Positions 8,561-31,107 of a stretch of DNA of 64,000 nucleotides are shown piece by piece. The notes under the pieces are model-generated. The model saw nothing but the letters and a program-made list of their open reading frames with translations, was not told the origin of the DNA and ran no database searches. The translations under genes were made by a program, and so were the position numbers. Source of the DNA: Clavelina lepadiformis. Taxonomy: Eukaryota > Chordata > Ascidiacea > Aplousobranchia > Clavelinidae. The DNA lies in assembly GCF_947623445.1 (NCBI RefSeq), contig NC_135241.1, positions 24,616,501 to 24,680,500 on the forward strand, given 5' to 3'. How positions within the stretch are numbered: the first letter of the stretch is position 1; each line of letters opens with the position of its first letter.

Positions 8561-8564
8561 GATT
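8561..8564. repeat. Target-site duplication GATT, left
   Basis: GATT directly precedes the left LTR-like repeat and recurs directly after the right one at 30947-30950. The duplicated flank at 37513-37516 has a single GATT joined to the sequence that here lies beyond the right repeat. Confidence 0.8.
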
Positions 8565-9016
8565 TGTGATGATATTATAAAATTGCTTGCAAATCGAATG
8601 CTGCATAGAATACTTGTTTATGGAAATCGGCAAAGCAAAGCATTGCGTTACGTAATCGATTCCTCTCTGCTTATCGTATTAAGTCGTGACAAAAATGTCG
8701 TGCATGCCTGCTTTGCGTGTGTTGTTAGTCATAGTTGTTCAATGCGTTACAGTCTACGAAGTTAACCATAGAAAGTGGTCGACTTTATTGTATAGCTGTC
8801 ACAATGTCTTATTTAATGTAATCGTTTAAACAAGAAACAATATAACCAGTTTTTACAGTTGTCATGGTGTACAATTGATTCTAAGATTAAGAGAAGCGAA
8901 ACAACGACCTGAGACTCATTTCACTTCGAGGACATTAAGCAATTCTACAGACAAACATTGTAATTGAAGTGATCGTCCTTACAGGCTAAGGAACGATAAA
9001 CCACCATTTCATTACA
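8565..9016 (+). repeat. Left LTR-like repeat of the outer element
   Basis: 452 bp, TG...CA ends, matching 30495-30946 with about ten differences by eye. It contains an open frame at 8544-8765 that also appears in the right copy but is not recognised as a gene. Confidence 0.8.
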
Positions 9017-9370
9017 ACGTTTATGGTGCCAACGAGCTCGGTGAGAACTACGCTTTTCTTTTATCGAGGAATCTATGAACAGTTAAATTTGAGGTTGAGA
9101 GAAGTCTAGTGATCTCAGACTACAAGTTTCGAAGATATGTCTTATCTACATTGTATGCAAGTGCTAAACGAAGACTCGTTGAATTCAGTCAACTATGAAT
9201 GCAACGATGACCGACGAACAGAGCAAACTGAAACATCCACGATACGGGACAGTTCGGTAAAAATACTTCATCGGTATTTGGACATTCAGTAATGATTTTT
9301 TGTTTGTTTATTCTCTATATATCCTAGCGCGTTGTTTTGTACTTTACTGTATGTTTTGGTGAAGCCTATA
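9017..9370 (+). other. Left unique interior of the outer element
   Basis: Contains the possible primer-binding site (from 9024) and a 42-codon open frame beginning MSYLHCMQV. The product is unknown and may be a leader or a chance frame. No relative was recognised. Confidence 0.4.
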
Positions 9371-9922
9371 AAGGGGTCACTTCCCAATAAAACGACAATT
9401 TTGTGCTGGCAACACAGTGATTGTGACCGTGTCGCACTCAATGCGTCATATTAAAAAAAGTAAAAATTTTCCGGTCCAATGCGCATGTGACGTCGATGTG
9501 GAGTAGTTCGTCGTTGTATTGACGACAGCTGGTTCCAGGTCTAGGCTAAGTTGTAAATTTTGTGTGGGTTTGAATTTTTGTTTTTTTGGAGTATTTGTCA
9601 TAAAATGTTAAGCTAAAAACTTGTTGTAAAGTTTAGGCAATTGTTATAGAAAACTGAGTACATGGATTTTGTCCAAATTAAGACTGTAGACAGACATAAC
9701 CTAGGTCTTGTTGCAAGCCAAAATTCAGGGTAGGTTTATGATGTAGTTTTGCGTTGGTAGCTTCTTGATTTAATGTACTTTGCATTGAAAAGCCTATCTC
9801 TTTGAATTGGGACATGAACCCTTAAGCAAATAACAGAAGTTTACTTTAGTACTTAAAATTTAGTTGAAACTAGCTTATAGTTAATACACTACAGAGACGT
9901 AGGCGTAGCTAGGTCTCGAAAT

Positions 9923-10098
9923 CAGCTTGATTTTCATCTAGACTACGCTAGCTTGATTTTCATCTAGACTACGCTTGCTTGATTTTCATCTAGACTACGC
10001 TAGCTTGATTTTCATCTAGACTACGCTAGCTTGATTTTCATCTAGACTACCCTAGCTAGATTTTTATCTAGACTACGCTAGCTACATTTTCATCTTGT
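9923..10098. repeat. 26-bp minisatellite, unit 1
   Basis: Between six and seven copies of a unit with core TTTTCATCTAGACTACGC. The last copies are more diverged. Confidence 0.9.
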
Positions 10099-10205
10099 CA
10101 GATTTGAAAGTCAGGAGAAGATTCCGGAAACACCGACATGGTGGAATCTATCTAGTGATTCGAGAAAAGTGCCATTTTATCTATTTGCATTTCACATTAA
10201 GCACA

Positions 10206-10287
10206 GTTGTCGTGGCCGAGTGGTTAAGGCGACAGACTTGAAATCTGTTGGGCTATGCCCGCGTAGGTTCGAATCCTGCCGACAACG
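10206..10287 (+). tRNA. tRNA-Ser(UGA), unit 1
   Basis: 82 nt, class II with a long variable arm (GGGC/GCCC). Acceptor stem GTTGTCG/CGACAAC, discriminator G, anticodon TGA at 10239-10241. A box TGGCCGAGTGG and B box GGTTCGAATCC are intact, and the T stem pairs fully (GTAGG/CCTGC). A TTTT run for Pol III termination lies about 12 nt downstream. Confidence 0.9.
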
Positions 10288-10364
10288 CCGATATTACTTT
10301 TGCAATTTCATATGGATATTCGGAAAAGTGCGATTTTATCTATTTCATCTATGTATTAAGCACA

Positions 10365-10446
10365 GTTGTCGTGGCCGAGTGGTTAAGGCGACAGACTCGA
10401 ATTCTGTTGGGCCCTGCCCGCGTAGGTTCGAATCCCGCCGACAACG
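10365..10446 (+). tRNA. tRNA-Ser(CGA), unit 1 copy 1
   Basis: Same scaffold with anticodon loop CTCGAAT. The T stem reads GTAGG/CCCGC, giving one A-C mismatch in the middle pair. Confidence 0.82.
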
Positions 10447-10523
10447 CAGATATTACTTTTGCAATTTCATATGGATATGCGGAAATGTGCGATTTTAACT
10501 ATTTCATCTATGCATTAAGCACA

Positions 10524-10605
10524 GTTGTCGTGGCCGAGTGGTTAAGGCGACAGACTCGAAATCTGTTGGGCCCTGCCCGCGTAGGTTCGAATCCCGCCGA
10601 CAACG
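10524..10605 (+). tRNA. tRNA-Ser(CGA), unit 1 copy 2
   Basis: Anticodon loop CTCGAAA. Lies 159 bp after the previous copy. Confidence 0.82.
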
Positions 10606-10682
10606 CAGATATTACTTTTGCAATTTCATATGGATATTCGGAAATGTGCGATTTTAACAATTTCATCTATGCATTAAGCACA

Positions 10683-10764
10683 GTTGTCGTGGCCGAGTGG
10701 TTAAGGCGACAGACTCGAAATCTGTTGGGCCCTGCCCGCGTAGGTTCGAATCCCGCCGACAACG
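10683..10764 (+). tRNA. tRNA-Ser(CGA), unit 1 copy 3
   Basis: Identical in its 82 nt to the preceding copy, so the two were recently copied or homogenised. Confidence 0.82.
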
Positions 10765-10841
10765 CAGATATTACTTTTGCAATTTCATATGGATATTCGG
10801 AAATGTGCCATTTTAACAATTTCATCTATGCATTAAGCAAA

Positions 10842-10920
10842 GTTGTCGTGGCCGAGTGGTTAAGGCGACAGACTAGAAATCTGCTGGGCTCTGCCCACTT
10901 AGGTTCGAATCTCACGTCCA
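10842..10920 (+). pseudogene. tRNA-Ser(AGA) pseudogene closing unit 1
   Basis: The 5' half and anticodon loop CTAGAAA are intact. The 3' end runs into CACGTCCAGAAG instead of the acceptor strand CGACAAC, and the T stem pairs poorly. It should not form a normal acceptor stem. Confidence 0.8.
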
Positions 10921-11137
10921 GAAGAAGAAGAAGGTTCAAAACCTTGTCCACCCACCTAGTGCTTTTCTTGCGAGATTGTAAGAATAAAGTCAAGATGCGC
11001 AGAAATCATAGGGCGGGTGGGGGGAACAAATAGCACAGTGGAAAAACCGGAGAACGTCGACAAAAAAGCTGCAGGTTCAAACCAGCGAGCCGCAGAGCGA
11101 CGAGCCAACAACCGTTTGATGACCATTTGACTGTATA
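10921..11137 (+). repeat. tRNA-like (SINE-head-like) segment, unit 1
   Basis: Has an A-box-like TAGCACAGTGG and, about 40 bp on, a B-box-like GGTTCAAACC, spaced as in a tRNA. The sequence differs from the tRNA-Ser genes. It recurs at 14611-14827, 26583-26790 and 29339-29553. It could be a tRNA-derived SINE head or another tRNA relic. Confidence 0.5.
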
Positions 11138-12323
11138 GGCCACCAGCCGGCCAGACCCACGTCTAGGCCACCAGCCGGCCAGACCCACGTCTAGGCCACC
11201 AGCCGGCCAGACCCACGTCTAGGCCACCAGCCGGCCAGACCCACGTCTAGGCCACCAGCCGGCCAGACCCACGTCTAGGCCACCAGCCGGCCAGACCCAC
11301 GTCTAGGCCACCAGCCGGCCAGACCCACGTCTAGGCCACCAGCCGGCCAGACCCACGTCTAGGCCACCAGCCGGCCAGACCCACGTCTAGGCCACCAGCC
11401 GGCCAGACCCACGTCTAGGCCACCAGCCGGCCAGACCCACGTCTAGGCCACCAGCCGGCCAGACCCACGTCTAGGCCACCAGCCGGCCAGACCCACGTCT
11501 AGGCCACCAGCCGGCCAGACCCACGTCTAGGCCACCAGCCGGCCAGACCCACGTCTAGGCCACCAGCCGGCCAGACCCACGTCTAGGCCACCAGCCGGCC
11601 AGACCCACGTCTAGGCCACCAGCCGGCCAGACCCACGTCTAGGCCACCAGCCGGCCAGACCCACGTCTAGGCCACCAGCCGGCCAGACCCACGTCTAGGC
11701 CACCAGCCGGCCAGACCCACGTCTAGGCCACCAGCCGGCCAGACCCACGTCTAGGCCACCAGCCGGCCAGACCCACGTCTAGGCCACCAGCCGGCCAGAC
11801 CCACGTCTAGGCCACCAGCCGGCCAGACCCACGTCTAGGCCACCAGCCGGCCAGACCCACGTCTAGGCCACCAGCCGGCCAGACCCACGTCTAGGCCACC
11901 AGCCGGCCAGACCCACGTCTAGGCCACCAGCCGGCCAGACCCACGTCTAGGCCACCAGCCGGCCAGACCCACGTCTAGGCCACCAGCCGGCCAGACCCAC
12001 GTCTAGGCCACCAGCCGGCCAGACCCACGTCTAGGCCACCAGCCGGCCAGACCCACGTCTAGGCCACCAGCCGGCCAGACCCACGTCTAGGCCACCAGCC
12101 GGCCAGACCCACGTCTAGGCCACCAGCCGGCCAGACCCACGTCTAGGCCACCAGCCGGCCAGACCCACGTCTAGGCCACCAGCCGGCCAGACCCACGTCT
12201 AGGCCACCAGCCGGCCAGACCCACGTCTAGGCCACCAGCCGGCCAGACCCACGTCTAGGCCACCAGCCGGCCAGACCCACGTCTAGGCCACCAGCCGGCC
12301 AGACCCACGTCTAGGCCACCAGC
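11138..12323. repeat. 28-bp minisatellite, about 42 copies, unit 1
   Basis: Almost perfect tandem copies of a unit with core CCAGCCGGCCAGACCCACGT. It is GC-rich and contains the palindrome GGCCGGC-like core. There are no spacers between copies. Confidence 0.95.
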
Positions 12324-12383
12324 TATTCATATGGATTTTCGGAAAAGTGCCATTTTAACAATTTTATCTATGCATTAAGCAAA

Positions 12384-12424
12384 GTTGTCGTGGCCGAGTG
12401 GTTAAGGCGACAGACTAGAAATCT
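12384..12424 (+). pseudogene. Half tRNA-Ser(AGA), unit 1
   Basis: The tRNA 5' half to the anticodon stem, followed by simple CTGAAAT-type repeats in place of the 3' half. Confidence 0.8.
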
Positions 12425-12663
12425 AAAATCTGAAATCTGAAACTAGAAATCTGAAATTAAGGCGACAGACTAGAAATCACGTCTAGGCCACCAGCTGGCC
12501 AGACTCACGTCTAGGCCACCAGGTCACGTCACGTCTAGTCCAGACTCACGTCACGTCACGTAAATTCTGAGTATTTAGGAAGCTGCCGGAAGCTGTAAAA
12601 AATATTGCAAAAGTTGCAAAAACTTGCCCTACTAATCACCTAATCCTAATCCTAATCACTTAC

Positions 12664-12702
12664 CTTATATAATATATATAGATATCTATATATAGATATA
12701 GT
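12664..12702. repeat. AT palindrome at the end of unit 1
   Basis: TATATAGATATCTATATATA-type perfect inverted repeat. It is repeated at 15543-15582, 17183-17222, 27551-27590 and, lengthened, at 29775-29823. Confidence 0.7.
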
Positions 12703-13295
12703 CATGAGTAAAACTAAAATTTATGAATTTTTTTCACGTTTAAGGGGTCACTTCCGAATAAAACGACAATTTTGTGCTGAGCAACACAGTGATTGTGACC
12801 GTGTCGCACTCAATGCGTCATTCTAAAAAAAGTAAAAATTTTCCGGTCCAATGCGCATGTGACGTCGATGTGGAGTAGTTCGTCGTTGCTTTGACGACAG
12901 CTGGTTCCAGGTCTAGGCTAAGTTGTAAATTTTGTGTGGGTTTGAATTTTTGTTTTTTTGGAGTATTTGTCATAAAATGTTAAGCTAAAAACTTGTTGTA
13001 AAGTTTAGGCAATTGTTATAGAAAACTGAGTACATGGATTTTGTCCAAATTAAAACGGTAGACAGACATAACCTAGGTCTTGTTGCAAGCCAAAATTCAG
13101 GGTAGGTTTATGATGTAGTTTTGCGTTGGTAGCTTCTTGATTTAATGTACTTTGCATTGAAAAGCCTATCTCTTTGAATTGGGACATGAACCCTTAAGCA
13201 AATAACAGAAGTTTACTTTAGTACTTAAAATTTAGTTGAAACTAGCTTATAGTTAATACACTACAGAGACGTAGGCGTAGCTAGGTCTCGAAATC

Positions 13296-13468
13296 AGCTT
13301 GATTTTCATCTAGACTACGCTAGCTTGATTTTCATCTAGACTACGCTTGCTTGATTTTCATCTAGACTACGCTAGCTTGATTTTCATCTAGACTACGCTA
13401 GCTTGATTTTCATCTAGACTACCCTAGCTAGATTTTTATCTAGACTACGCTAGCTACATTTTCATCTT
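13296..13468. repeat. 26-bp minisatellite, unit 2
   Basis: Nearly identical in copy number and order to the array of unit 1. Confidence 0.9.
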
Positions 13469-13577
13469 GTCAGATTTGAAAGTCAGGAGAAGATTCCGGA
13501 AACACCGACATGGTGGAATCTATCTAGTGATTCGAGAAAAGTGCCATTTTATCTATTTGCATTTCACATTAAGCACA

Positions 13578-13659
13578 GTTGTCGTGGCCGAGTGGTTAAG
13601 GCGACAGACTTGAAATCTGTTGGGCGATGCCCGCGTAGGTTCGAATCCTGCCGACAACG
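13578..13659 (+). tRNA. tRNA-Ser(UGA), unit 2
   Basis: Leads the run as in unit 1. The variable-arm loop reads GGGCGATGCCC instead of GGGCTATGCCC. Confidence 0.9.
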
Positions 13660-13736
13660 CCGATATTACTTTTGCAATTTCATATGGATATTCGGAAAAG
13701 TGCGATTTTATCTATTTCATCTATGTATTAAGCACA

Positions 13737-13818
13737 GTTGTCGTGGCCGAGTGGTTAAGGCGACAGACTCGAATTCTGTTGGGCCCTGCCCGCGTAGGTT
13801 CGAATCCCGCCGACAACG
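13737..13818 (+). tRNA. tRNA-Ser(CGA), unit 2 copy 1
   Basis: Anticodon loop CTCGAAT. Confidence 0.82.
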
Positions 13819-13895
13819 CAGATATTACTTTTGCAATTTCATATGGATATTCGGAAATGTGCGATTTTAACTATTTCATCTATGCATTAAGCACA

Positions 13896-13977
13896 GTTGT
13901 CGTGGCCGAGTGGTTAAGGCGACAGACTCGAAATCTGTTGGGCCCTGCCCGCGTAGGTTCGAATCCCGCCGACAACG
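13896..13977 (+). tRNA. tRNA-Ser(CGA), unit 2 copy 2
   Basis: Anticodon loop CTCGAAA. Confidence 0.82.
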
Positions 13978-14054
13978 CAGATATTACTTTTGCAATTTCA
14001 TATGGATATTCGGAAATGTGCGATTTTAACAATTTCATCTATGCATTAAGCACA

Positions 14055-14136
14055 GTTGTCGTGGCCGAGTGGTTAAGGCGACAGACTCGAAATCTGTTGG
14101 GCCCTGCCCGCGTAGGTTCGAATCCCGCCGACAACG
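14055..14136 (+). tRNA. tRNA-Ser(CGA), unit 2 copy 3
   Basis: Anticodon loop CTCGAAA, identical to copy 2. Confidence 0.82.
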
Positions 14137-14213
14137 CAGATATTACTTTTGCAATTTCATATGGATATTCGGAAATGTGCGATTTTAACTATTTCATCTA
14201 TGCATTAAGCACA

Positions 14214-14295
14214 GTTGTCGTGGCCGAGTGGTAAAGGCGACAGACTCGAAATCTGTTGGGCCCTGCCCGCGTAGGTTCGAATCCCGCCGACAACG
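14214..14295 (+). tRNA. tRNA-Ser(CGA), unit 2 copy 4
   Basis: D loop differs by one base (GGTAAAGGC for GGTTAAGGC); stems are unchanged. Its downstream spacer also carries a local change (GCCGGTTC for GCAATTTC). Confidence 0.75.
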
Positions 14296-14372
14296 CAGAT
14301 ATTACTTTTGCCGGTTCATATGGATATTCGGAAATGTGCGATTTTAACAATTTCATCTATGCATTAAGCACA

Positions 14373-14454
14373 GTTGTCGTGGCCGAGTGGTTAAGGCGAC
14401 AGACTCGAAATCTGTTGGGCCCTGCCCGCGTAGGTTCGAATCCCGCCGACAACG
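14373..14454 (+). tRNA. tRNA-Ser(CGA), unit 2 copy 5
   Basis: Anticodon loop CTCGAAA. Last intact copy before the AGA pseudogene. Confidence 0.82.
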
Positions 14455-14531
14455 CAGATATTACTTTTGCAATTTCATATGGATATTCGGAAATGTGCCA
14501 TTTTAACAATTTCATCTATGCATTAAGCAAA

Positions 14532-14610
14532 GTTGTCGTGGCCGAGTGGTTAAGGCGACAGACTAGAAATCTGCTGGGCTCTGCCCACTTAGGTTCGAAT
14601 CTCACGTCCA
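14532..14610 (+). pseudogene. tRNA-Ser(AGA) pseudogene closing unit 2
   Basis: Matches the closing pseudogene of unit 1. Confidence 0.8.
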
Positions 14611-14827
14611 GAAGAAGAAGAAAGTTCAAAACCTTGTCCACCCACCTCCTGCTTTTCTTGCGAGATTGTAAGAATAAAGTCAAGATGCGCAGTAAGCATA
14701 GGGTGGGTGGGGGGAATCCATTGCACAGTGGAAAAACCGGAGAACGTCGACAAACAAGCTGCAGGTTCAAACCAGCGAGCCGCAGAGCGACGAGCCAACA
14801 ACCGTTTGATGACCATTTGACTGTATA
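14611..14827 (+). repeat. tRNA-like segment, unit 2
   Basis: A-box-like TTGCACAGTGG and B-box-like GGTTCAAACC in the same spacing as in unit 1. Confidence 0.5.
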
Positions 14828-15153
14828 GGCCACCAGCTGGCCAGACTCACGTCTAGGGCCACCAGCTGGCCAGACTCACGTCTAGGGCCACCAGCTGGCC
14901 AGACTCACGTCTAGGGCCACCAGCTGGCCAGACTCACGTCTAGGGCCACCAGCTGGCCAGACTCACGTCTAGGGCCACCAGCTGGCCAGACTCACGTCTA
15001 GGGCCACCAGCTGGCCAGACTCACGTCTAGGGCCACCAGCTGGCCAGACTCACGTCTAGGGCCACCAGCTGGCCAGACTCACGTCTAGGGCCACCAGCTG
15101 GCCAGACTCACGTCTAGGGCCACCAGCTGGCCAGACTCACGTCTAGGCCACTA
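14828..15153. repeat. 29-bp minisatellite, about 11 copies, unit 2
   Basis: A variant with CAGCTGGCC and ACTCACG and an extra G per copy. All copies share these changes, so the array expanded on its own. Confidence 0.95.
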
Positions 15154-15215
15154 GCTGTTCATATAGATATTCGGAAAAGTGCCATTTTAACAATTTTATC
15201 TATGCATTAAGCACA

Positions 15216-15256
15216 GTTGTCGTGGCCGAGTGGTTAAGGCGACAGACTAGAAATCT
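15216..15256 (+). pseudogene. Half tRNA-Ser(AGA), unit 2
   Basis: Followed by a longer CTGAAAT-type run than in unit 1. Confidence 0.8.
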
Positions 15257-16176
15257 GAAATCTCTGAAATCTGAAATCTGAAATCTGAAACTAGAAATCT
15301 GAAATTAAGGCGACAGACTAGAAATCACGTCTAGGCCACCAGCTGGCCAGACTCACGTCTAGGCCACCAGCTGGCCAGACTCACGTCTAGGCCACCAGGT
15401 CACGTCACGTCTAGGCCAGACTCACGTCACGTCACGTAAATTCTGAGTATTTAGGAAGCTGCCGGAAGCTGTAAAAAATATTGCAAAAGTTGCAAAAACT
15501 TGCCCTACTAATCACCTAATCCTAATCCTAATCCTAATCACTTACCTTATATAATATATATAGATATCTATATATAGATATAGTCATGAGTAAAACTAAA
15601 ATTTATGAATTTCTTCACGTTTAAGGGGTCACTTCCGAATAAAACGACAATTTTGTGCTGAGCAACACAGTGATTGTGACCGTGTCGCACTCAATGCGTC
15701 ATATTAAAAAAAGTAAAAATTTTCCGGTCCAATGCGCATGTGACGTCGATGTGGAGTAGTTCGTCGTTGCTTTGACGACAGCTGGTTCCAGGTCTAGGCT
15801 AAGTTGTAAATTTTGTGTGGGTTTGAATTTTTGTTTTTTTGGAGTATTTGTCATAAAATGTTAAGCTAAAAACTTGTTGTAAAGTTTAGGCAATTGTTAT
15901 AGAAAACTGAGTACATGGATTTTGTCCAAATTAAGACTGTAGACAGACATAACCTAGGTCTTGTTGCAAGCCAAAATTCAGGGTAGGTTTATGATGTAGT
16001 TTTGCGTTGGTGGCTTCTTGATTTAATGTACTTTGCATTGAAAAGCCTATCTCTTTGAATTGGGACATGAACCCTTAAGCAAATAACAGAAGTTTACTTT
16101 AGTACTTAAAATTTAGTTGAAACTAGCTTATAGTTAATACACTACAGAGACGTAGGCGTAGCTAGGTCTCGAAATC

Positions 16177-16297
16177 AGCTTGATTTTCATCTAGACTACG
16201 CTAGCTTGATTTTCATCTAGACTACGCTAGCTTGATTTTCATCTAGACTACCCTAGCTAGATTTTTATCTAGACTACGCTAGCTACATTTTCATCTT
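16177..16297. repeat. 26-bp minisatellite, unit 3
   Basis: The shortest version, between four and five copies. Confidence 0.9.
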
Positions 16298-16406
16298 GTC
16301 AGATTTGAAAGTCAGGAGAAGATTCCGGAAACACCGACATGGTGGAATCTATCTAGTGATTCGAGAAAAGTGCCATTTTATCTATTTGCATTTCACATTA
16401 AGCACA

Positions 16407-16488
16407 GTTGTCGTGGCCGAGTGGTTAAGGCGACAGACTTGAAATCTGTTGGGCGATGCCCGCGTAGGTTCGAATCCTGCCGACAACG
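16407..16488 (+). tRNA. tRNA-Ser(UGA), unit 3
   Basis: GGGCGATGCCC variable-arm version, as in unit 2. Confidence 0.9.
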
Positions 16489-16565
16489 CCGATATTACTT
16501 TTGCAATTTCATATGGATATTCGGAAAAGTGCGATTTTATCTATTTCATCTATGTATTAAGCACA

Positions 16566-16647
16566 GTTGTCGTGGCCGAGTGGTTAAGGCGACAGACTCG
16601 AATTCTGTTGGGCCCTGCCCGCGTAGGTTCGAATCCCGCCGACAACG
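16566..16647 (+). tRNA. tRNA-Ser(CGA), unit 3 copy 1
   Basis: Anticodon loop CTCGAAT. Confidence 0.82.
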
Positions 16648-16724
16648 CAGATATTACTTTTGCAATTTCATATGGATATTCGGAGATGTGCGATTTTAAC
16701 TATTTCATCTATGCATTAAGCACA

Positions 16725-16806
16725 GTTGTCGTGGCCGAGTGGTTAAGGCGACAGACTCGAAATCTGTTGGGCCCTGCCCGCGTAGGTTCGAATCCCGCCG
16801 ACAACG
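16725..16806 (+). tRNA. tRNA-Ser(CGA), unit 3 copy 2
   Basis: Anticodon loop CTCGAAA. The 3' flank begins CCGAT, as after the UGA gene. Confidence 0.82.
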
Positions 16807-16883
16807 CCGATATTACTTTTGCAATTTCATATGGATATTCGGAAATGTGCGATTTTAACAATTTCATCTATGCATTAAGCACA

Positions 16884-18787: not shown

Positions 18788-18800
18788 GAAGAAGAAGAAG

Positions 18801-21044: not shown

Positions 21045-24000
21045 ATGGCTTTTAATGTGACGTTGCCTCCACCGAGATATAAGTCCAATGAAGACTTTCA
21101 AGACTTTCTCAAAGTTTTTAACTCTTACTGCGCCAGCATTAGGGCAAATCAAGATTTTAAGAAACACCTCCTCATTGAAAGTTTCGATAAGGACTTTGTC
21201 TGGGAAATTCAAGGGAAAGATACCTCCATCTACGACTTAGAATTCGACGAGTTGGTGGAAAGGGCCTCAGGAGCAGGGCGATCAAAGGCGGAAATCAGCA
21301 GATTGAAAAACAGCCTTTTGGATAGGGTACAAGAACCGGACGAATCTACACGATCATTCGTCTACGCTTTGCGGAAGCAGGGTGACATGGCATATGCCAG
21401 TGCAGATCAAGCACCTGTAAAAAATGAGGTACTCTACTTGGCATTGATCCGGGGTTTGAGAAACCGCAAGATATCGGAAACCTTAGTCGCAGACTTAGAG
21501 ATCGGCAGAGACTTCTTCACTACCAGCGCCCGAGCCATTGCCCTGGACGTCTCGGAAAAGACTCCGTGTTCAGACGTGTTCACTGTCGCTCGACTTTCAC
21601 ATGGACACGAAAGCCGCCAAGACGAAGCGACTGTCTTGATGAAGAATGAACTTGCTAAGATAAGTGGCGAGATAAAGTTGTTTAATGACAATATTCAAGG
21701 CCGGATTTCCAGTATTGACGAAACTGTGTCTTCAGTGAAAACGCAAATGAACACTTTACAACGAGACGTGGATCGCCTCCATTGGAAACCACGCGCACCG
21801 GGTCCGTCTGAAGGAAGAAATCAACGATACCGAAACCGTAAGTCCCCTTCCGATAAAACACGTGGGGTCCGAAACGACCCACGTTCAAATACAAATCCGT
21901 CTAAATATGATTCATTTAGGCGAAATCGTCCAAACCGTCAAAGCCTAGCTACGAATCACAACCCTCAGACTAACGCATTTGATGTAAACAGATCAAAGTT
22001 AAGTTGGAATCGATCCCGTCCGACTGCTCCAGCCAACGCAACACCCGCTCAACAACAATACCGGAAAAGGTTATGCAAGTATGTCAATGTGATGTTGTGT
22101 TCTATGCCCATTTGTGCTCTGGTAGACACGGGAGCCAGCGTATCACTCATGTCTAAAACTTTGTTCGATAAAGTTTCGTCAGAAAATCCGGGTACTACAC
22201 TAGGCCCCACATTAGATACACAGTTAACAACGGCTAGCGGGACGGCCCTACAGGTGTTAGGCCTTGTCACTCTATCAGTGCAAGTGGCCGGTTTGATCAC
22301 AGAGTGCGAAATCTACGTCGTTTATCGACTCACAGAAGATTTCATCATTGGGTTAGATTTTGTCCAGCATCACCAATGCCGGATCTGCTACAAAGACAAA
22401 ATTCTAGAAGCAGGATCGTCTTCGACACCCCTGCTCGATGGGAAAGTGACCTTACAGCGAAACGAGGTTTATATCGTAGAAGACCTGATCGTCCCCGCTT
22501 CCACTGAGGTGTGTACTTTCGGCATATTTTGTATGGATCCGATGCTTAAGATGCCCGACGTTGAGTTTCCGGCACTAGTTGAAGGTAATCTCCGATTGAA
22601 TGATAAATATGGGGTACTAGCGGGTAACTACCTCACACAAGTTCATAACGGAAAGGTCCCCATTCGATTGGCTAATTTCAGTGATGACGAAGTCAGATTA
22701 GTCAACGGAACCAGGGTCGCCACCCTACATCCAGTCTCTGTATTCGGCGGAGGTGATGTTTACCAGCCCGGCACGTGCGCTTTAGTTTCGAGATTAAATT
22801 CCACGTGTAACTGCAATAATAACCGATGCATTGTGAACTCCGACCAAAGATGCTTCGTGGCGTCGGTAGAAGAACATCGTTTTAAACCCCAGCGTGATCA
22901 CTTGCAAGCTATTGAAGAAGGCGTAGATTTAGGGACGAAGCTGTCTAAGAGTGAACGTCGCGAAGTACTCAATTTATTATCGAAGCATTGGAAGTGTTTT
23001 TCGACCAGTCAATTCGATCTAGGTAAAACCGACTTGATAGAACACCATGTCGACATTGGGACTAGCGCCCCTGTGAGACAACCGCATCGTCGAATACCCC
23101 CTCGAGACAAGCGCCAGGTGGAAGAAATCCTCACGGAAATGGAGAAGCAAGGCTTGATTCGCACATCCACATCCCCTTGGTCCAGCGCCATTGTTCTTGT
23201 ACGAAAAAAATCGGGCGAGTTGAGGTTTTGTGTTGATTACAGGCGCGTGAATGACCTGATGAAAAAGAACAGTTTCCCAATCCCACGTGTCGACGAGAGC
23301 CTGGACGAATTGTCGAGTAACATTTATTTTTCTACCCTGGATCTGCGTTCAGGGTATTGGCAAATACCCATGAATCACAGGTCCCGCGAGGTTACTGCTT
23401 TTACCACCCACATGGGGTTATATGAATGGAACGTTATGCCGATGGGTCTCAGCAATTCGGCAGCTACATTTCAACGATTGATGCACATCGTTCTAAATGG
23501 ATTGGAGTGGCGCGGCGCTTTAGCATATTTAGACGATGTAATAGTGTATGGTCGCACATTCGGGGAGCACATGTCTCGTTTAAGCATTGTTCTAAGTCGA
23601 CTGGAAGAAGCCGGTTTAACACTGAAACCGTCCAAATGCTCTCTTTTTCAAGAATCGGTGAAATTTTTAGGGCATAAAATTTCTAAGGAAGGCGTGATGT
23701 GTGACGCCGAGAAAGTAGAGGCAGTCGCGAATTGGCCGATACCTCGCACCGTGAAACACGTTCGACAGTTTGTGGGTCTGACATCATATTATAGGAAGTT
23801 TATTCCAAATTATGCCAAAATTGCCTCACCGTTGCACAAACTCACCGAGAAGAACAAGAAGTTTCAGTGGACCGAAGAGCATCAGGACGCCTTTGCTACT
23901 TTGAAGCGTTTGCTGTGTACCGCACCAGTGCTGGCATACCCAAACTACGACAAGCCGTTTATTCTCGACACCGATGCATCCGATAACGCAATTGGCGCTG

Positions 24001-26090
24001 TTCTGTCACAAGTCATAGATGACAGAGAGCGTGTGATCTCGTATTGTAGCCGATCTCTAGGGAAAGCAGAAAAGAACTACTCCACGACTCGAAAAGAGCT
24101 TCTGGCGGTCGTCTGGGCAACAAAATTGAATAGGTGTCACCTACTAGGTCAAAAGTTTTTGCTGAGGACGGACCATGCATCGTTGCGTTGGTTATGGCAG
24201 TCAAAGGAGTTGTATGGACAATGCGCTCGATGGATAGAACACCTTGCCGAGTACAATTTTGAGCTACTCCATCGACCAGGACAAAAACACAAAAACGCTG
24301 ACGCGTTGAGTCGACGCCCTAACGAAAGTACACAGGTGAACCTCCCCTACAAATGGCATGACCAACAAGTTGCAACAAGCCTCGAAGATTCCAAGCAAAC
24401 AGTCAACAACATAGATCTTAGAGGCAACATCGGGTTTCTTCCGAATGAAGTACTGAATCTACAGGAAGAGGACGCAGAGATTGCCCCCGCTTTGAGATGG
24501 CTACAGTCGGGGAAAAGACCTCCGTACAAACAGGTTAAAAACCTGTCAAGAATGACTAAGCATCTATGGGCCCAATTTGGAAATTTACACACTTTTGACG
24601 GCCCAGTTTATTGGACAAATAGTAATCGCAGTTTACCGGGAACACACTGTTATCGACTTATAACCCCGGAACCTATGCGTTTGTCTGTTTTGCAGTCACT
24701 ACACGATTGCGTTCTCGGCGGGGCTCATTTAGGGTTGACGAAAACTTGCCACAAAGTAGAAGAAAAATTTTATTGGCCTGGTTGGAGACAGGACACCGAA
24801 AAATATTGCCGAAACTGCGATTTATGTCAAAGGAACAAGAAACCGCCGGCCGAGCCAAGGGCGAGGTTGGTTCCGTCCACGGAAGATAGGGCGATGCAGA
24901 GAGTAGAAATAGACGTCGTGGGACCCCTACTTATGACATCATCAAGTTTCCAATACATCTTGGTGACGTGCGATTTATTTACCAAGTACGTAAGGGCCTG
25001 GCCCATGCGCAATCAAACAGCAAAAACCACAGCGGACATCTTGTTCCACCGATGGTTCACAGTTCATGGTGTACCAGATGTTATCCACAGCGACCGGGGT
25101 GGGAACTTTGAGAGCGAGGTCTTCAAAGAACTGTTACGATTGATGGGTTGTTCAAAAACAAGGACCACAAGTTATCATCCACAAGGGAACGGGGGAGTTG
25201 AGAGAAACAACAAGACTATCATCACCATGTTACGAAACTACGTACAGGAGGATCAACGTAGTTGGGATCAAGCTTTGTCAGCCGTCGTGGCGGCCTATAA
25301 CGCGAGCGTCCACGACAGCACAGGTGTATCGCCGCATTTCTTATTAACTGGTCGTACACTTCGTTTACCTGCGGATTTATTGGGCACACCGACCGGTGGA
25401 GTGCTGAAAACGTCGGTTATTCAGGATTTACAAACGCGGTTAAAGATTGCAGAAAAAACGGTGCGGGAAACGCTACGGAAACAACGAACGAAGATGGCCG
25501 ACCTCTACGACCAACGACAAAGGGGGCTACCAATTGAAGTGGGGGAAGAAGTATGGCTGAAAGACCCAGTGGTCCCACAGGGAGAATATCGCAAATTTCA
25601 TCTTCCTTACAAGGGCCCCTTCACGGTAGTGAACGCGCGACATCCCACTTATACTATCAAAGATAAAGCCAGCAAAGAGCAAACGGTCCATTTTAACAGA
25701 ATGAAATTAAGGGTTCATAGTGATGACAAGCGTGACAATCAACACCCGTACGATCATGTTCCGGATAATTGCATTAACCACTATTCTCCTTTTGAAGGTT
25801 TGGTGTTCATACCACTAAATTCAACGGATACCGCCGCCGGAGAACCCGAGGCTACATCAATCAACACGAGCGCGACTGAGCGATTATCCAGTAGGCAAGG
25901 ACCAGAAGACTCGGCAGTTGGGCAACTCAGGATCACAGAGGAGGGCAATAACGAGACAATGGAGACAAGCCAACCTGCCCTCGAAGAGAACGGCCCCATT
26001 CCCAGCGAGACCACTTCGGCCATGACGGAAAGAAACCTACCGCCACGGCGAGCTCGAAGACAAACACGTTTTTACCCGGATATTGAATAA
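21045..26090 (+). CDS. Gag-Pol polyprotein, Ty3/gypsy
   Basis: 1681 codons from the first ATG (MAFNVTLPPPRY); the frame is also open upstream to the LTR. Domains in order: Gag with a basic C-terminal tract to about residue 340; aspartic protease (LVDTGAS, about 360); reverse transcriptase (YLDD, about 827); RNase H (DTDAS, about 974); integrase with a zinc-binding His/Cys region (about 1215-1265), the DDE core (first D about 1289, DRGGNFES about 1350, GGVERNNK about 1386) and a GPY/F-like module (YKGPF, about 1522). The pol order RT-RNH-IN marks it as Ty3/gypsy rather than copia. Gag and Pol share one frame. Confidence 0.92.
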   Translation: MAFNVTLPPPRYKSNEDFQDFLKVFNSYCASIRANQDFKKHLLIESFDKDFVWEIQGKDTSIYDLEFDELVERASGAGRSKAEISRLKNSLLDRVQEPDESTRSFVYALRKQGDMAYASADQAPVKNEVLYLALIRGLRNRKISETLVADLEIGRDFFTTSARAIALDVSEKTPCSDVFTVARLSHGHESRQDEATVLMKNELAKISGEIKLFNDNIQGRISSIDETVSSVKTQMNTLQRDVDRLHWKPRAPGPSEGRNQRYRNRKSPSDKTRGVRNDPRSNTNPSKYDSFRRNRPNRQSLATNHNPQTNAFDVNRSKLSWNRSRPTAPANATPAQQQYRKRLCKYVNVMLCSMPICALVDTGASVSLMSKTLFDKVSSENPGTTLGPTLDTQLTTASGTALQVLGLVTLSVQVAGLITECEIYVVYRLTEDFIIGLDFVQHHQCRICYKDKILEAGSSSTPLLDGKVTLQRNEVYIVEDLIVPASTEVCTFGIFCMDPMLKMPDVEFPALVEGNLRLNDKYGVLAGNYLTQVHNGKVPIRLANFSDDEVRLVNGTRVATLHPVSVFGGGDVYQPGTCALVSRLNSTCNCNNNRCIVNSDQRCFVASVEEHRFKPQRDHLQAIEEGVDLGTKLSKSERREVLNLLSKHWKCFSTSQFDLGKTDLIEHHVDIGTSAPVRQPHRRIPPRDKRQVEEILTEMEKQGLIRTSTSPWSSAIVLVRKKSGELRFCVDYRRVNDLMKKNSFPIPRVDESLDELSSNIYFSTLDLRSGYWQIPMNHRSREVTAFTTHMGLYEWNVMPMGLSNSAATFQRLMHIVLNGLEWRGALAYLDDVIVYGRTFGEHMSRLSIVLSRLEEAGLTLKPSKCSLFQESVKFLGHKISKEGVMCDAEKVEAVANWPIPRTVKHVRQFVGLTSYYRKFIPNYAKIASPLHKLTEKNKKFQWTEEHQDAFATLKRLLCTAPVLAYPNYDKPFILDTDASDNAIGAVLSQVIDDRERVISYCSRSLGKAEKNYSTTRKELLAVVWATKLNRCHLLGQKFLLRTDHASLRWLWQSKELYGQCARWIEHLAEYNFELLHRPGQKHKNADALSRRPNESTQVNLPYKWHDQQVATSLEDSKQTVNNIDLRGNIGFLPNEVLNLQEEDAEIAPALRWLQSGKRPPYKQVKNLSRMTKHLWAQFGNLHTFDGPVYWTNSNRSLPGTHCYRLITPEPMRLSVLQSLHDCVLGGAHLGLTKTCHKVEEKFYWPGWRQDTEKYCRNCDLCQRNKKPPAEPRARLVPSTEDRAMQRVEIDVVGPLLMTSSSFQYILVTCDLFTKYVRAWPMRNQTAKTTADILFHRWFTVHGVPDVIHSDRGGNFESEVFKELLRLMGCSKTRTTSYHPQGNGGVERNNKTIITMLRNYVQEDQRSWDQALSAVVAAYNASVHDSTGVSPHFLLTGRTLRLPADLLGTPTGGVLKTSVIQDLQTRLKIAEKTVRETLRKQRTKMADLYDQRQRGLPIEVGEEVWLKDPVVPQGEYRKFHLPYKGPFTVVNARHPTYTIKDKASKEQTVHFNRMKLRVHSDDKRDNQHPYDHVPDNCINHYSPFEGLVFIPLNSTDTAAGEPEATSINTSATERLSSRQGPEDSAVGQLRITEEGNNETMETSQPALEENGPIPSETTSAMTERNLPPRRARRQTRFYPDIE

Positions 26091-26128
26091 CTTTTCCGGG
26101 GACGAAAAAGAACTGAACGGGGGGGCGA

Positions 26129-26578
26129 TGTCACGAGAAGTATTTGTATACACCGTTTTTATATCCGTCACGTTTTATTCGTTTTTATTCACATCATCAC
26201 GTTGTTCGCATTGTCACCGTCACGTTTTATACGTCGATTTATCCGCGTTGTATTGTCTCTTTGTACATGTTCACGTGCTGCTGTGTTTTACTTGTTCATG
26301 AGTCCACATGTTTTTATTCTATCTCTAGTGACGTTACCCCGAGGGCCCAATCAGTACTGTGTTTAGCGTCCCACGCTGATTCTATGATTGTGTGGAATTT
26401 GTTTTGGTGTGGTGTTTCGCTCTGGTATAAGGTGTTGGTTCAGTAACGTTTGGGTGAGATAACAGAAGGACGTATGTTTTTACCTAAGAGATATGCCATT
26501 AAATGTGAATAAAGAAGACAGAGCTAATTGACTAGCCGTTAAGCGGGAAGATTCCTGGTCAAAGAAAGTTTGGTTACA
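26129..26578 (+). repeat. 3' LTR of the long element
   Basis: Ends GGTTACA and is followed directly by the interrupted GAAGAAGG of unit 4. Confidence 0.92.
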
Positions 26579-26582
26579 GAAG

Positions 26583-26790
26583 AAGGTTCAAAACCTTGTC
26601 CACCCACCTCCTGCTTTTCTTGCGAGATTGTAAGAATAAAGTCAAGATGCGCAGAAAGCATAGGGTGGGTGGGGGGAACCCATAGAACAGTGGTAAAACA
26701 CGAGAACGTCGACCAACAAGATGCAGGTTCAAACCAGCGAGCCGCAGAGCGACGAGCCAACAACCGTTTGATGACCATTTGACTGTATAG
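26583..26790 (+). repeat. tRNA-like segment, unit 4
   Basis: Same segment, here with the A-box region changed to CATAGAACAGTGG. Confidence 0.5.
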
Positions 26791-27052
26791 GCCACCAGCT
26801 GGCCAGACTCACGTCTAGGCCACCAGCCGGCCAGACTCACGTCTAGGCCACCAGCCGGCCAGACTCACGTCTAGGCCACCAGCCGGCCAGACTCACGTCT
26901 AGGCCACCAGCCGGCCAGACTCACGTCTAGGCCACCAGCCGGCCAGACTCACGTCTAGGCCACCAGCCGGCAAGACTCACGTCTAGGCCACCAGCCGGCC
27001 AGACTCACGTCTAGGCCACCAGCCGGCCAGACTCACGTCTAGGCCACCAGCT
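26791..27052. repeat. 28-bp minisatellite, about 9 copies, unit 4
   Basis: A third variant: CAGCCGGCC combined with ACTCACG. The first copy has CAGCTGG. Confidence 0.95.
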
Positions 27053-27111
27053 ATTCATATGGATATTTGGAAAAGTGCCATTTTAACAATTTCATCTATG
27101 CATTAAGCAAA

Positions 27112-27152
27112 GTTGTCGTGGCCGAGTGGTTAAGGCGACAGACTAGAAATCT
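27112..27152 (+). pseudogene. Half tRNA-Ser(AGA), unit 4 copy 1
   Basis: Followed within 20 bp by a minisatellite fragment. Confidence 0.75.
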
Positions 27153-27269
27153 GAAATCTCACTCACGTCTAGGCCACCAGCTGGCCAGAATCACGTCTAG
27201 GCCACCAGCTATTCATATGGATATTCGGAAAAGTGCCATTTTAACAATTTTATCTATGCATTAAGCAAA

Positions 27270-27310
27270 GTTGTCGTGGCCGAGTGGTTAAGGCGACAGA
27301 CTAGAAATCT
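27270..27310 (+). pseudogene. Half tRNA-Ser(AGA), unit 4 copy 2
   Basis: 158 bp after the previous half copy, a local duplication found only in this unit. Confidence 0.75.
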
Positions 27311-28182
27311 GAAATCTGAAATCTGAAACTAGAAATCTGAAATTAAGGCGACAGACTAGAAATCACGTCTAGGCCACCAGGTCACGTCACGTCTAGGCCA
27401 GACTCACGTCACGTCACGTAAATTCTGAGTATTTAGGAAGCTGCCGGAAGCTGCCGGAAGCTGCCGGAAGCTGCCGGAAGCTGTAAAAAATATTGCAAAA
27501 GTTGCAAAAACTTGCCCTACTAATCACCTAATCCTAATCCTAATCACTTACCTTATATAATATATATAGATATCTATATATAGATATAGTCATGAGTAAA
27601 ACTAAAATTTATGAATTTCTTCACGTTTAAGGGGTCACTTCCGAATAAAACGACAGTTTTGTGCTGAGCAACACAGTGATTGTGACCGTGTCGCACTCAA
27701 TGCGTCATATTAAAAAAAGTAAAAATTTTCCGGTCCAATGCGCATGTGACGTCGATGTGGAGTAGTTCGTCGTTGCTTTGACGACAGCTGGTTCCAGGTC
27801 TAGGCTAAGTTGTAAATTTTGTGTGGGTTTGAATTTTTGTTTTTTTGGAGTATTTGTCATAAAATGTTAAGCTAAAAACTTGTTGTAAAGTTTAGGCAAT
27901 TGTTATAGAAAACTGAGTACATGGATTTTGTCCAAATTAAAACGGTAGACAGACATAACCTAGGTCTTGTTGCAAGCCAAAATTCAGGGTAGGTTTATGA
28001 TGTAGTTTTGCGTTGGTAGCTTCTTGATTTAATGTACTTTGCATTGAAAAGCCTATCTCTTTGAATTGGGACATGAACCCTTAAGCAAATAACAGAAGTT
28101 TACTTTAGTACTTAAAATTTAGTTGAAACTAGCTTATAGTTAATACACTACAGAGACGTAGGCGTAGCTAGGTCTCGAAATC

Positions 28183-28353
28183 AGCTTGATTTTCATCTAG
28201 ACTACGCTAGCTTGATTTTCATCTAGACTACGCTTGCTTGATTTTCATCAAGACTTTGCTAGCTTGATTTTCATCTAGACTACGCTAGCTTGATTTTCAT
28301 CTAGACTACCCTAGCTAGATTTTTATCTAGACTACGCTAGCTACATTTTCATC
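28183..28353. repeat. 26-bp minisatellite, unit 5
   Basis: Between six and seven copies, one with clustered changes (ATCAAGACTTTGC). Confidence 0.9.
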
Positions 28354-28464
28354 TTGTCAGATTTGAAAGTCAGGAGAAGATTCCGGAAACACCGACATGG
28401 TGGAATCTATCTAGTGATTCGAGAAAAGTGCCATTTTATCTATTTGCATTTCACATTAAGCACA

Positions 28465-28546
28465 GTTGTCGTGGCCGAGTGGTTATGGCGACAGACTTGA
28501 AATCTGTTGGGCTATGCCCGCGTAGGTTCGAATCCTGCCGACAACG
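28465..28546 (+). tRNA. tRNA-Ser(UGA), unit 5
   Basis: D loop differs by one base (GGTTATGGC). Stems are intact. Confidence 0.85.
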
Positions 28547-28623
28547 CCGATATTACTTTTGCAATTTCATATGGATATTCGGAAAAGTTCGATTTTATCT
28601 ATTTCATCTATGTATTAAGCACA

Positions 28624-28705
28624 GTTGTCGTGGCCGAGTGGTTAAGGCGACAGACTCGAATTCTGTTGGGCCCTGCCCGCGTAGGTTCGAATCCCGCCGA
28701 CAACG
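28624..28705 (+). tRNA. tRNA-Ser(CGA), unit 5 copy 1
   Basis: Anticodon loop CTCGAAT. Confidence 0.82.
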
Positions 28706-28782
28706 CAGATATTACTTTTGCAATTTCATATGGATATTCGGAAATGTGCGATTTTAACTATTTCATCTATGCATTAAGCACA

Positions 28783-28864
28783 GTTGTCGTGGCCGAGTGG
28801 TTAAGGCGACAGACTCGAAATCTGTTGGGCCCTGCCCGCGTAGGTTCGAATCCCGCCGACAACG
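28783..28864 (+). tRNA. tRNA-Ser(CGA), unit 5 copy 2
   Basis: Anticodon loop CTCGAAA. Confidence 0.82.
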
Positions 28865-28941
28865 CAGATATTACTTTTGCAATTTCATATGGATATTCGG
28901 AAATGTGCGATTTTAACAATTTCATCTATGCATTAAGCACA

Positions 28942-29023
28942 GTTGTCGTGGCCGAGTGGTTAAGGCGACAGACTCGAATTCTGTTGGGCCCTGCCCGCGT
29001 AGGTTCGAATCCCGCCGACAACG
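28942..29023 (+). tRNA. tRNA-Ser(CGA), unit 5 copy 3
   Basis: Anticodon loop CTCGAAT, the variant that is confined to copy 1 in the other units. This suggests a within-unit copy event. Confidence 0.82.
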
Positions 29024-29100
29024 CAGATATTACTTTTGCAATTTCATATGGATATTCGGAGATGTGCGATTTTAACTATTTCATCTATGCATTAAGCACA

Positions 29101-29182
29101 GTTGTCGTGGCCGAGTGGTTAAAGCGACAGACTCGAATTCTGTTGGGCCCTGCCGGCGTAGGTTCGAATCCCGCCGACAACG
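29101..29182 (+). tRNA. tRNA-Ser(CGA), unit 5 copy 4, weakened
   Basis: The D stem has lost a pair (GCC with AGC) and the variable arm has a mismatch (GGGC with GCCG), besides the shared T-stem mismatch. It may be non-functional. Confidence 0.6.
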
Positions 29183-29259
29183 CAGATATTACTTTTGCAA
29201 TTTCATATGGATATTCGGAAATGTGCGATTTTAACTATTTCATCTATGCATTAAGCACA

Positions 29260-29338
29260 GTTGTCGTGGCCGAGTGGTTAAGGCGACAGACTAGAAATCT
29301 GCTGGGCTCTGCCCGCGTAGGTTCGAATCTCACGTCCA
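29260..29338 (+). pseudogene. tRNA-Ser(AGA) pseudogene closing unit 5
   Basis: Retains GCCCGCGTAGG in the variable and T arms, but still lacks the acceptor 3' strand. Confidence 0.8.
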
Positions 29339-29553
29339 GAAGAAGAAGAAGGTTCAAAACCTTGTCCACCCACCTCCTGCTTTTCTTGCGAGATTGTAAG
29401 AATAAAGTCAAGATGCGCAGAAAGCATAGGGTGGGTGGGGGCAACCCATAGCACAGTGGAAAAACCGGAGAACGTCGACAAACAAGCTGCAGGTTCAAAC
29501 CAGCGAGCCGCAGAGCGACGAGCCAACAACCGTTTGATGACCATTTGACTGTA
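29339..29553 (+). repeat. tRNA-like segment, unit 5
   Basis: Same segment with TAGCACAGTGG and GGTTCAAACC. Confidence 0.5.
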
Positions 29554-29662
29554 TAGGCCACCAGCTGGCCAGACTCACGTCTAGGGCACCAGCTGGCCAG
29601 ACTCACGTCTAGGGCACCAGCTGGCCAGACTCACGTCTAGGGCACCAGCTGGCCAGACTCAC
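29554..29662. repeat. 28-bp minisatellite, about 4 copies, unit 5
   Basis: A fourth variant, GGGCACCAGCTGG, shared by copies 2-4. Confidence 0.9.
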
Positions 29663-29863
29663 GTCACGTCACGTAAATTCTGAGTATTTAGGAAGCTGCC
29701 GGAAGCTGTAAAAAATATTGCAAATGTTGCAAAAACTTGCCCTACTAATCACCTAATCCTAATCCTAATCACTTACCTTATATAATATATATAGATATCT
29801 ATAGATATCTATATATAGATATAGTCATGAGTAAAACTAAAATTTATGAATTTCTTCACGTTT

Positions 29864-30317
29864 AAGGGGTCACTTCCGAATAAAACGACAATTTTGTGCT
29901 GAGCAACACAGTGATTGTGACCGTGTCGCACTCAATGCGTCATATTAAAAAAAGTAAAAATTTTCCGGTCCAATGCGCATGTGACGTCGATGTGGAGTAG
30001 TTCGTCGTTGCTTTGACGACAGCTGGTTCCAGGTCTAGGCTAAGTTGTAAATTTTGTGTGGGTTTGAATTTTTGTTTTTTTGGAGTATTTGTCATAAAAT
30101 GTTAAGCTAAAAACTTGTTGTAAAGTTTAAGCAATTGTTATAGAAAACTGAGTACATGGATTTTGTCCAAATTAAGACTGTAGACAGACATAACCTAGGT
30201 CTTGTTGCAAGCCAAAATTCAGGGTAGGTTTATGATGTAGTTTTGCGTTGGTAGCTTCTTGATTTAATGTACTTTGCATTGAAAAGCCTATCTTTATGAA
30301 TTGGGACATGAACCCTA
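29864..30317 (+). repeat. tRNA-Ser tandem unit 6, spacer only
   Basis: Only the first 450 bp of a unit. Homology stops near GGGACATGAACCC, before the minisatellite and tRNA genes. Confidence 0.85.
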
Positions 30318-30494
30318 AAGCATAGCTTGAGTCTTATGTCTAGGATATTGTCCATTTGTATCGCTGTCAAGTTGTCGTACCTCGGAAGGGTTTAAAAGAA
30401 CCTGTGTTAGGAATCTCTGACAATATGATGTTACATTTATGTTGATCATAAATTGCTTAATCTTGCATCTTAAGCATTTTCTGGGAGGAGGTTA
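30318..30494 (+). other. Right unique interior of the outer element with purine tract
   Basis: Unique AT-rich sequence ending in GGGAGGAGGTTA directly before the right LTR-like repeat, as expected for a plus-strand priming tract. Confidence 0.55.
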
Positions 30495-30946
30495 TGTGAT
30501 GATATTATAAAATTGCTTGCAAATCGAATGCTGCATAGAATACTTGTTTACGGAAATCGGCAAAGCAAAGCATTGCGTTACGTAATCGATTCCTCTCTGC
30601 TTATCGTATTAAGTCGTGACAAAAATGTCGTGCATGCCTGCATTGCGTGTGTTGTTATTCATAGTTGTTCAATGCGTTACAGTCTACGAAGTTAACCATA
30701 GAAAGTGGTCGACTTTATTATGTAGCTGTCACAATGTCTTATTTAATGTAATCGTTTAAACAAGAAACAATATAACCAGTTTATACAGTTGTCATGGTAT
30801 ACAATTGATTCTAAGATTAAGAGAAGCGAAACAACGACCTGAGACTCATTTCACTTCGAGGACATTAAGCAATTCTACAGACAAACATTGTAATTGAAGT
30901 GATCGTCCTTACAGGCTAAGGAACGATAAACAATCATTTCATTACA
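30495..30946 (+). repeat. Right LTR-like repeat of the outer element
   Basis: 452 bp, TGTGATG...CATTACA, followed by GATT (30947-30950). Confidence 0.8.
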
Positions 30947-31107
30947 GATTAATTGAATGTGGTCGTCTGGTATCCTACAATAAAAGTCTGGTTACACGAA
31001 CACAACTTAAACACAAGTGGACTTGTGGCCTGTACATTTTGAAAGTTTGCCAGATACGCCAGAGTGGAAAATTACCGATGTGACAAAGGAGTTGTTTAAT
31101 TTTTGCC
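30947..31107. repeat. Flank that continues the left duplicated segment
   Basis: Matches 37513-37673 over about 160 bp. In that copy it follows directly on the DNA that here lies 22.4 kb to the left. Confidence 0.85.

Follow-up and report, generated by a model that had tools for sequence, protein, structure and literature searches.

The stretch of DNA analysed here, referred to below as the window, comprises 64,000 bp of the genome of the ascidian Clavelina lepadiformis (C2:24616501-24680500), and all genome searches were made in the 209-Mb assembly of this one genome. Its main feature is a block of tandem serine tRNA (tRNA-Ser) genes of 20.9 kb (9373-30315), which lies within a small long terminal repeat (LTR) element and has a TAAA flank on each side. 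The block is built of two components, H, a 449/450-bp miniature transposon of TTAA type (GGGGTCAC...CCCC), and T, a cassette in which tRNA-Ser genes are combined with two minisatellites, which alternate in the layout H-(T-H)5 (Table 1). The window is free of N, and unit numbers are given as assembled.

The LTR element and the block within it

The outer element is bounded by direct repeats of the TG...CA form, 452 bp each and with 9 mismatches between them, with GATT on both sides and a purine tract, GGGAGGAGG, directly 5' of the right LTR. These features were located as the initial annotation had described them, its start at 8561 being the first base of the left GATT. A candidate tRNA primer site, TGGTGCCAACGAG, lies 7 bases 3' of the left LTR. 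The annotation had also recognised an empty site in a second copy of the locus, and this was borne out: the left flank (34562-37512) is 95.1% identical to 5597-8560, the right flank continues from 37513 onward with 92.5% identity over 161 bp, and the two meet at a single GATT.

A genome search with the outer LTR returned 694 candidate places, 40 of which were scored (at least 44 matches), and 18 full-length LTRs other than the two of the window were read with 1.5 kb on each side. A 4-bp target duplication was found at all 18, which agrees with the earlier reading of the repeats and GATT as hallmarks of LTR retrotransposon integration. Since the duplication directly abuts both ends, these 18 are solo LTRs. 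Two complete copies of the element (L022 and L025; 1,387 and 1,392 bp) have target duplications of AACC and AGCT, and their LTRs share 84-86% identity with the window pair. The interior is short and lacks coding capacity, the longest stop-free frame in L022 being 95 codons. The outer element is a separate, non-autonomous retroelement of about 1.4 kb, similar to terminal-repeat retrotransposons in miniature (TRIMs).

The initial annotation had offered two accounts of the tRNA genes, namely that the LTR element carried them or that it was later filled by them, and had suggested searching the genome with the 452-bp repeat and the two inner edges. Such a search found other copies of the element, and the tRNA units do not travel with them. 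At 11 of the 13 left-edge loci fetched (10 distinct places and 11 copies, L024 and L027 overlapping), the left and right inner edges are fused without tRNA genes; at the other two (L031, L032) the left inner edge is present and the right is absent. The uninterrupted site of the other copies reads CCTATAAAGCATA, whereas the window reads CCTATAAA/GGGG...CCC/TAAAGCATA, the borders of the block being TAAA/GGGGTCAC at 9373 and CCC/TAAA at 30315. Therefore the LTR element did not bring the tRNA genes. The LTRs, the GATT duplication and the purine tract do all surround the block, as expected of an LTR element with tRNA arrays as its own cargo, but the block is delimited by ends and flanks of its own and is found elsewhere without these LTRs, and that account is highly improbable. 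Because the block has its own H termini, its own TAAA duplication and relatives elsewhere, the LTRs are unrelated to the spread of the tRNA genes, and of the two accounts only later filling agrees with these results.

The tRNA-Ser genes of a T cassette number three to six and stand in 159-bp units, the last tRNA unit of the cassette being degenerate; T also contains two minisatellites, of 26 and 28 bp. The internal H copies have TTAA at both sides. The earlier count of 22 tRNA-Ser genes was reproduced both by ARAGORN (5 UGA and 17 CGA) and by Rfam, where they scored 50.9-64.4 bits, above the gathering score of 29. A-box and B-box strings were present in all 22, and TTTT lies within 25 bases downstream in 21. 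Just outside the block, 35 bp on the minus strand (33559-33593) match part of the H 3' end exactly, with no clear terminus.

The cassette T4 is broken by two Ty3-type elements. The annotation had seen no gag or pol, which is correct for the outer LTR element and incorrect for the block, as the longer Ty3-type element encodes RVT_1 (2e-35) and an rve integrase core (6.1e-13), both matched by Pfam in pieces. The LTRs of the longer element are identical and those of the shorter differ at 1 position over a 422-base alignment, compared with 9/452 for the outer pair. The nesting itself gives the order of events: the LTR element came first, then H and T, then the Ty3-type elements. An interior piece of the shorter element had no Pfam match; this interior holds a 57-bp tandem repeat rich in glutamate, alanine and proline. 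Only five bases (ATTGA) separate the LTRs of the two neighbours.

Table 1. Features of the outer LTR element, the tRNA block and the empty site (window coordinates)
Feature	Position	Strand	Remarks
GATT target duplication of LTR element, left copy	8561-8564		
Left LTR	8565-9016	+	452 bp
Left inner part, non-autonomous LTR element	9017-9368	+	Fused directly to right inner part in other copies
TAAA flank of tRNA block, left	9369-9372		Empty site of other copies reads CCTATAAAGCATA
H1	9373-9821	+	Left terminal copy of the TTAA-type miniature transposon
T1	9822-12743	+	26-bp minisatellite, 4 tRNA-Ser, degenerate tRNA unit, 28-bp minisatellite (42 copies)
tRNA-Ser genes of T1	10206-10289, 10365-10447, 10524-10606, 10683-10765		
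H2	12744-13193	+	Internal, TTAA both sides
T2	13194-15624	+	6 tRNA-Ser (13578, 13737, 13896, 14055, 14214, 14373) and minisatellites
H3	15625-16074	+	Internal
T3	16075-17264	+	3 tRNA-Ser (16407, 16566, 16725) and minisatellites
H4	17265-17714	+	Internal
T4	17715-27630	+	4 tRNA-Ser (18073, 18232, 18391, 18550); broken by two Ty3-type elements
Ty3-type element, short interior	18801-20531	+	LTRs 18801-19218, 20114-20531
Young Ty3-type element	20537-26578	+	Identical LTRs 20537-20986, 26129-26578; open frame 20940-26090
H5	27631-28080	+	Internal
T5	28081-29865	+	5 tRNA-Ser (28465, 28624, 28783, 28942, 29101) and minisatellites
H6	29866-30315	+	Right terminal copy
TAAA flank of tRNA block, right	30316-30319		
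Right inner part of LTR element	30320-30494	+	Purine tract at its end
Right LTR	30495-30946	+	452 bp
GATT target duplication of LTR element, right copy	30947-30950		
Duplicate of flanks with empty site	34562-37673	+	GATT at 37513-37516

Elsewhere in the window, and unrelated to the tRNA block, an 81-bp tandem repeat of 10.4 copies (4618-5458) lies within a long, Ser/Lys-rich repeat open frame (4022-5503). F5/8 type C domains (Pfam PF00754) are encoded at 38874-39281 and 51441-51848, and similar frames at 41599-42006 and 63056-63460; together these look like a local gene family. A collagen-like neighbour (42312-42815) falls under the Pfam cut-off.

H copies and arrays across the genome

The ends of H are inverted (GGGGTCACTTCCCAAT and GGGGTCATGTCCCAAT). 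With up to 2 mismatches allowed, a 27-base pattern from the 5' end gave 131 genome matches; for the 3' end, a 23-base pattern gave 195, and the control matches were 0 in both searches. Four near-full-length solo copies were read, and the flanks match in three (TTCA/TTCA at L068, TTAA/TTAA at L078 and L085; mismatched TCAA/TTAA at L069). Five further copies are shortened (L079-L083), one of which (L080) has T attached, and just one young full-length solo H (98.4%) was found among the copies read. H begins GGGG, which has the purine (RR) start and not the AGGRR start of the T2 form. A 3-bp AAG duplication with ends AGGG...CCCT was considered and discarded, since other copies show 4-bp TTAA-like flanks and ends GGGG...CCCC. 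L067 was likewise dropped as a solo H, as a T fragment follows at 1933, and L064 as a possible autonomous partner, as its 2.1 kb holds only frames below 100 codons. Among the matches listed, three H 5' ends on C3 (22434188, 22445614 and 22457039) stand about 11.4 kb apart and suggest a different, larger H-bounded repeat; three H 3' ends on C6 (18379954, 18392360 and 18405311), 12-13 kb apart, are followed by TGCAG, an unusual flank which may mark another large tandem unit.

The junction of H followed by T has 91 matches, spread over 13 loci that are separated by more than 100 kb. A 204-bp stretch of T is 97.5-99.5% identical across nine loci. A 34-base core of the tRNA-Ser gene gave 1,271 genome matches at up to 2 mismatches, degenerate units included (control 0), and ARAGORN assigned the array tRNAs the anticodons UGA, CGA, AGA and GGA. 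An anticodon-stem pattern that we take to represent the ordinary serine tRNA genes of animals gave 6 matches at up to 2 mismatches, a count which may miss other forms.

Array ends were read at 11 loci, at some of which, among those ending in T, one end only was reached. At five of the 11, H stands at both ends between matching 4-bp flanks: TAAA in the window, TTCA at C7:19.017-19.042M, and TTAA at C8:1.655-1.696M, C8:15.98-16.007M and C8:17761057-17764306. The last of these, 3,250 bp long, consists of just one H-T-H unit, which also contains tRNA-Arg(UCU) and one intron-containing tRNA gene, presumably tRNA-Leu(CAA); similar genes elsewhere are labelled Leu, Arg or Thr by ARAGORN.

The possibility that the window block was mis-joined, or its unit number wrong, in assembly was also weighed. 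At 20.9 kb the block is longer than the mean fragment size of 12-20 kb given in the part of the genome note consulted, but the same source reports 117-fold HiFi coverage (PMC10884593). Furthermore, there is no N in the window, the units vary in length and content, and the H ends and flanks match exactly on both sides, so that an artefact is very unlikely.

Origin and growth of the arrays

The internal H copies are hybrids. Among the window copies, the left H is set apart by C at alignment column 13 and by the lack of an extra base at column 37; the internal and right copies show G and A, respectively, at these columns. The 3' ends group differently, with CTCTTTGAATT in the left and internal copies and CTTTATGAATT in the right copy. 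At C8:1.655M, the internal H agrees with the right H at columns 121 and 182 and with the left H at column 452. Thus, in both arrays in which the left, internal and right H were all fully read, the internal H combines the 5' variants of the right H with the 3' variants of the left, as unequal exchange between two flanking H copies would produce. A T-H circle that integrated into a single H would leave an identical pattern. The C7 array is uninformative on this point because its left H is identical to its internal H, and at C8:15.98M the left H was only partly read. Unit spacing is constant within an array (2,309 bp on C7, 2,158 bp on C8), a sign of local copying.

Taken together, these observations suggest that the block is probably a composite DNA transposon (H-T-H) which inserted into the short non-autonomous LTR element and then expanded locally. 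H copies targeting TTAA-like sites would form its ends, and its cargo would be the T cassette, whose tRNA-Ser(UCN) genes each have an A box and a B box of their own. Movement of H-T-H as one unit, by its two outermost ends only, would be the work of an inferred TTAA-specific transposase supplied in trans, which may be Kolobok-like or piggyBac-like; one of the Kolobok type would have DDE, THAP and H2CH parts. Once the unit had inserted, homology for unequal exchange would be available in the H copies and in the 26-, 28- and 159-bp repeats of T, and T-H units would thereby be multiplied locally.

Several observations weigh against a composite transposon. The expected structure, H on both sides within one outer target duplication, was found at the five loci described above and not at the six others, where the array stops within T at one end at least (C2:2.05-2.11M, C2:2.68M, C2:22.42M, C3:21.50M, C7:17.38M and C8:3.07M). 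These six are the chief evidence against any simple rule by which every array would terminate in H; we take them as probably shortened or rearranged. Even among the five, a TTAA/TTAA match says little, because TTAA is the preferred site, and only TAAA and TTCA are telling. The window H ends in GAACCC in place of GACCCC, and the window copy may for that reason be immobile. In addition, an H-free junction of T with T across a single TTAA has one genome match (C2:2683645-2683675, up to 3 mismatches; control 0), at a rearranged locus. A TTAA site that was never occupied, or one cleanly vacated, would look like this, and to that extent the junction also agrees with the composite reading, but T could have been tandem before H arrived.

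That junction bears on the suggestion that T is a host tandem array of tRNA genes into which H inserted and was co-copied, as Pokey is in ribosomal DNA (rDNA), the 13 loci having arisen by segmental duplication or ectopic exchange. Several arrays do terminate inside T, and some T regions adjoin tRNA-Arg(UCU) and intron-containing tRNA genes, like a host cluster. Yet in five arrays the ends coincide exactly with H termini and the flanks match, in two cases with an unusual 4-bp sequence, and one array splits a dated retroelement whose insertion site is otherwise intact. An origin of this kind is therefore unlikely.

A more serious alternative, possible though clearly the less probable, is that a solo H landed first with the TAAA duplication and was filled later, when a circular T-H multimer or exchange between arrays recombined into it. 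Solo H copies exist, integration of a circle into H predicts the same hybrid pattern and the same outer duplications, and the outer H halves at C8:1.655M appear less changed than the internal ones. This model nevertheless requires a solo H at every array site together with repeated capture, and young full-length solo H is represented by the single copy noted above. For the lone H-T-H unit between TTAA flanks on C8, a composite transposon is the simpler explanation, and movement of the composite is the course we favour over later filling.

Whether the cargo works is a more tentative matter. A composite TTAA transposon might spread intact tRNA-Ser genes with the anticodons UGA, CGA, AGA and GGA through the genome, one unit also carrying the Arg and intron-containing genes, in arrays that would expand to far outnumber the ordinary serine tRNA genes and shape the serine tRNA pool; we regard this as a rather doubtful possibility. 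Over 63 distinct tRNA units, diversity was 0.073 in the gene and 0.106 in the spacer overall. Purifying selection on the tRNA genes was considered but is not claimed, as gene diversity within a locus is below that of the spacer at just 5 of 13 loci; the genes therefore show no trace of recent selection, a point that also counts against the composite transposon.

Comparison with known systems

The growth, loss and scatter of tRNA gene families are usually ascribed to tandem duplication and retrotransposition. For the arrays described here, the evidence of boundaries, flanks and hybrid units favours a carrier of cut-and-paste type, with local unequal exchange as the amplifier; as many dated, bounded arrays are present in one genome, both steps are testable. 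The locus also carries a warning: an insertion may be unrelated to the LTR pair around it even where that pair is clean and has an empty site. The block looked like a tRNA-filled LTR element because it had landed inside an unrelated small retroelement. TRIM-type elements, which are short and non-autonomous, are a fit for the outer LTR element only, to the exclusion of the tRNA block.

Tandem many-copy repeats of tRNA genes, similar to T, are known from the tDNA repeats of Xenopus and the arrays of Entamoeba. For these, and for the Arabidopsis cluster mentioned below, we know of no bounding transposon and no dispersal to many loci with target duplications. A search of the open-licence literature (titles and abstract openings) found no prior description of H-T-H tRNA arrays, which is no proof of absence in print.

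The comparisons that follow draw on parts of the cited articles. The Arabidopsis tRNA-Ser/Tyr cluster resembles T as a tandem, many-copy repeat of tRNA genes (PMC12308677). As seen in those parts, none of the Kolobok-type elements including Xmix, Pokey or Dada consists of two transposon copies with intact arrays of tRNA genes between them. Dada is comparable to H-T-H as a DNA transposon tied to multicopy small RNA genes; however, Dada inserts into tRNA and small nuclear RNA genes with 6-7-bp duplications, whereas H carries such genes between 4-bp TTAA-like flanks (PMC3706591). Pokey, a piggyBac-type element which uses TTAA and some other sites, has rDNA spacer repeats and some tandem copies (PMC3849761). 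Pokey and mPok of Daphnia share with H-T-H the TTAA-type target, repeats captured from a multicopy RNA locus and tandem copies sharing TTAA. The repeats of Pokey are those of the rDNA spacer and its target is 28S, in contrast to H-T-H, which holds complete tRNA genes and does not lie at rDNA in the window (PMC3849761). Kolobok-type elements have a TTAA target and RR ends, and the T2-type Xmix contains an amplified tandem repeat (PMC6004289). Xmix and Xstir, T2-type, Kolobok-like miniature inverted-repeat transposable elements of Xenopus, resemble H-T in their TTAA target, short length, RR ends and the tandem repeats they have aboard. Xstir is described as a simple sequence repeat family, whereas the cargo of H-T is intact tRNA genes, with whole copies of H at the ends and between the units (PMC6004289).

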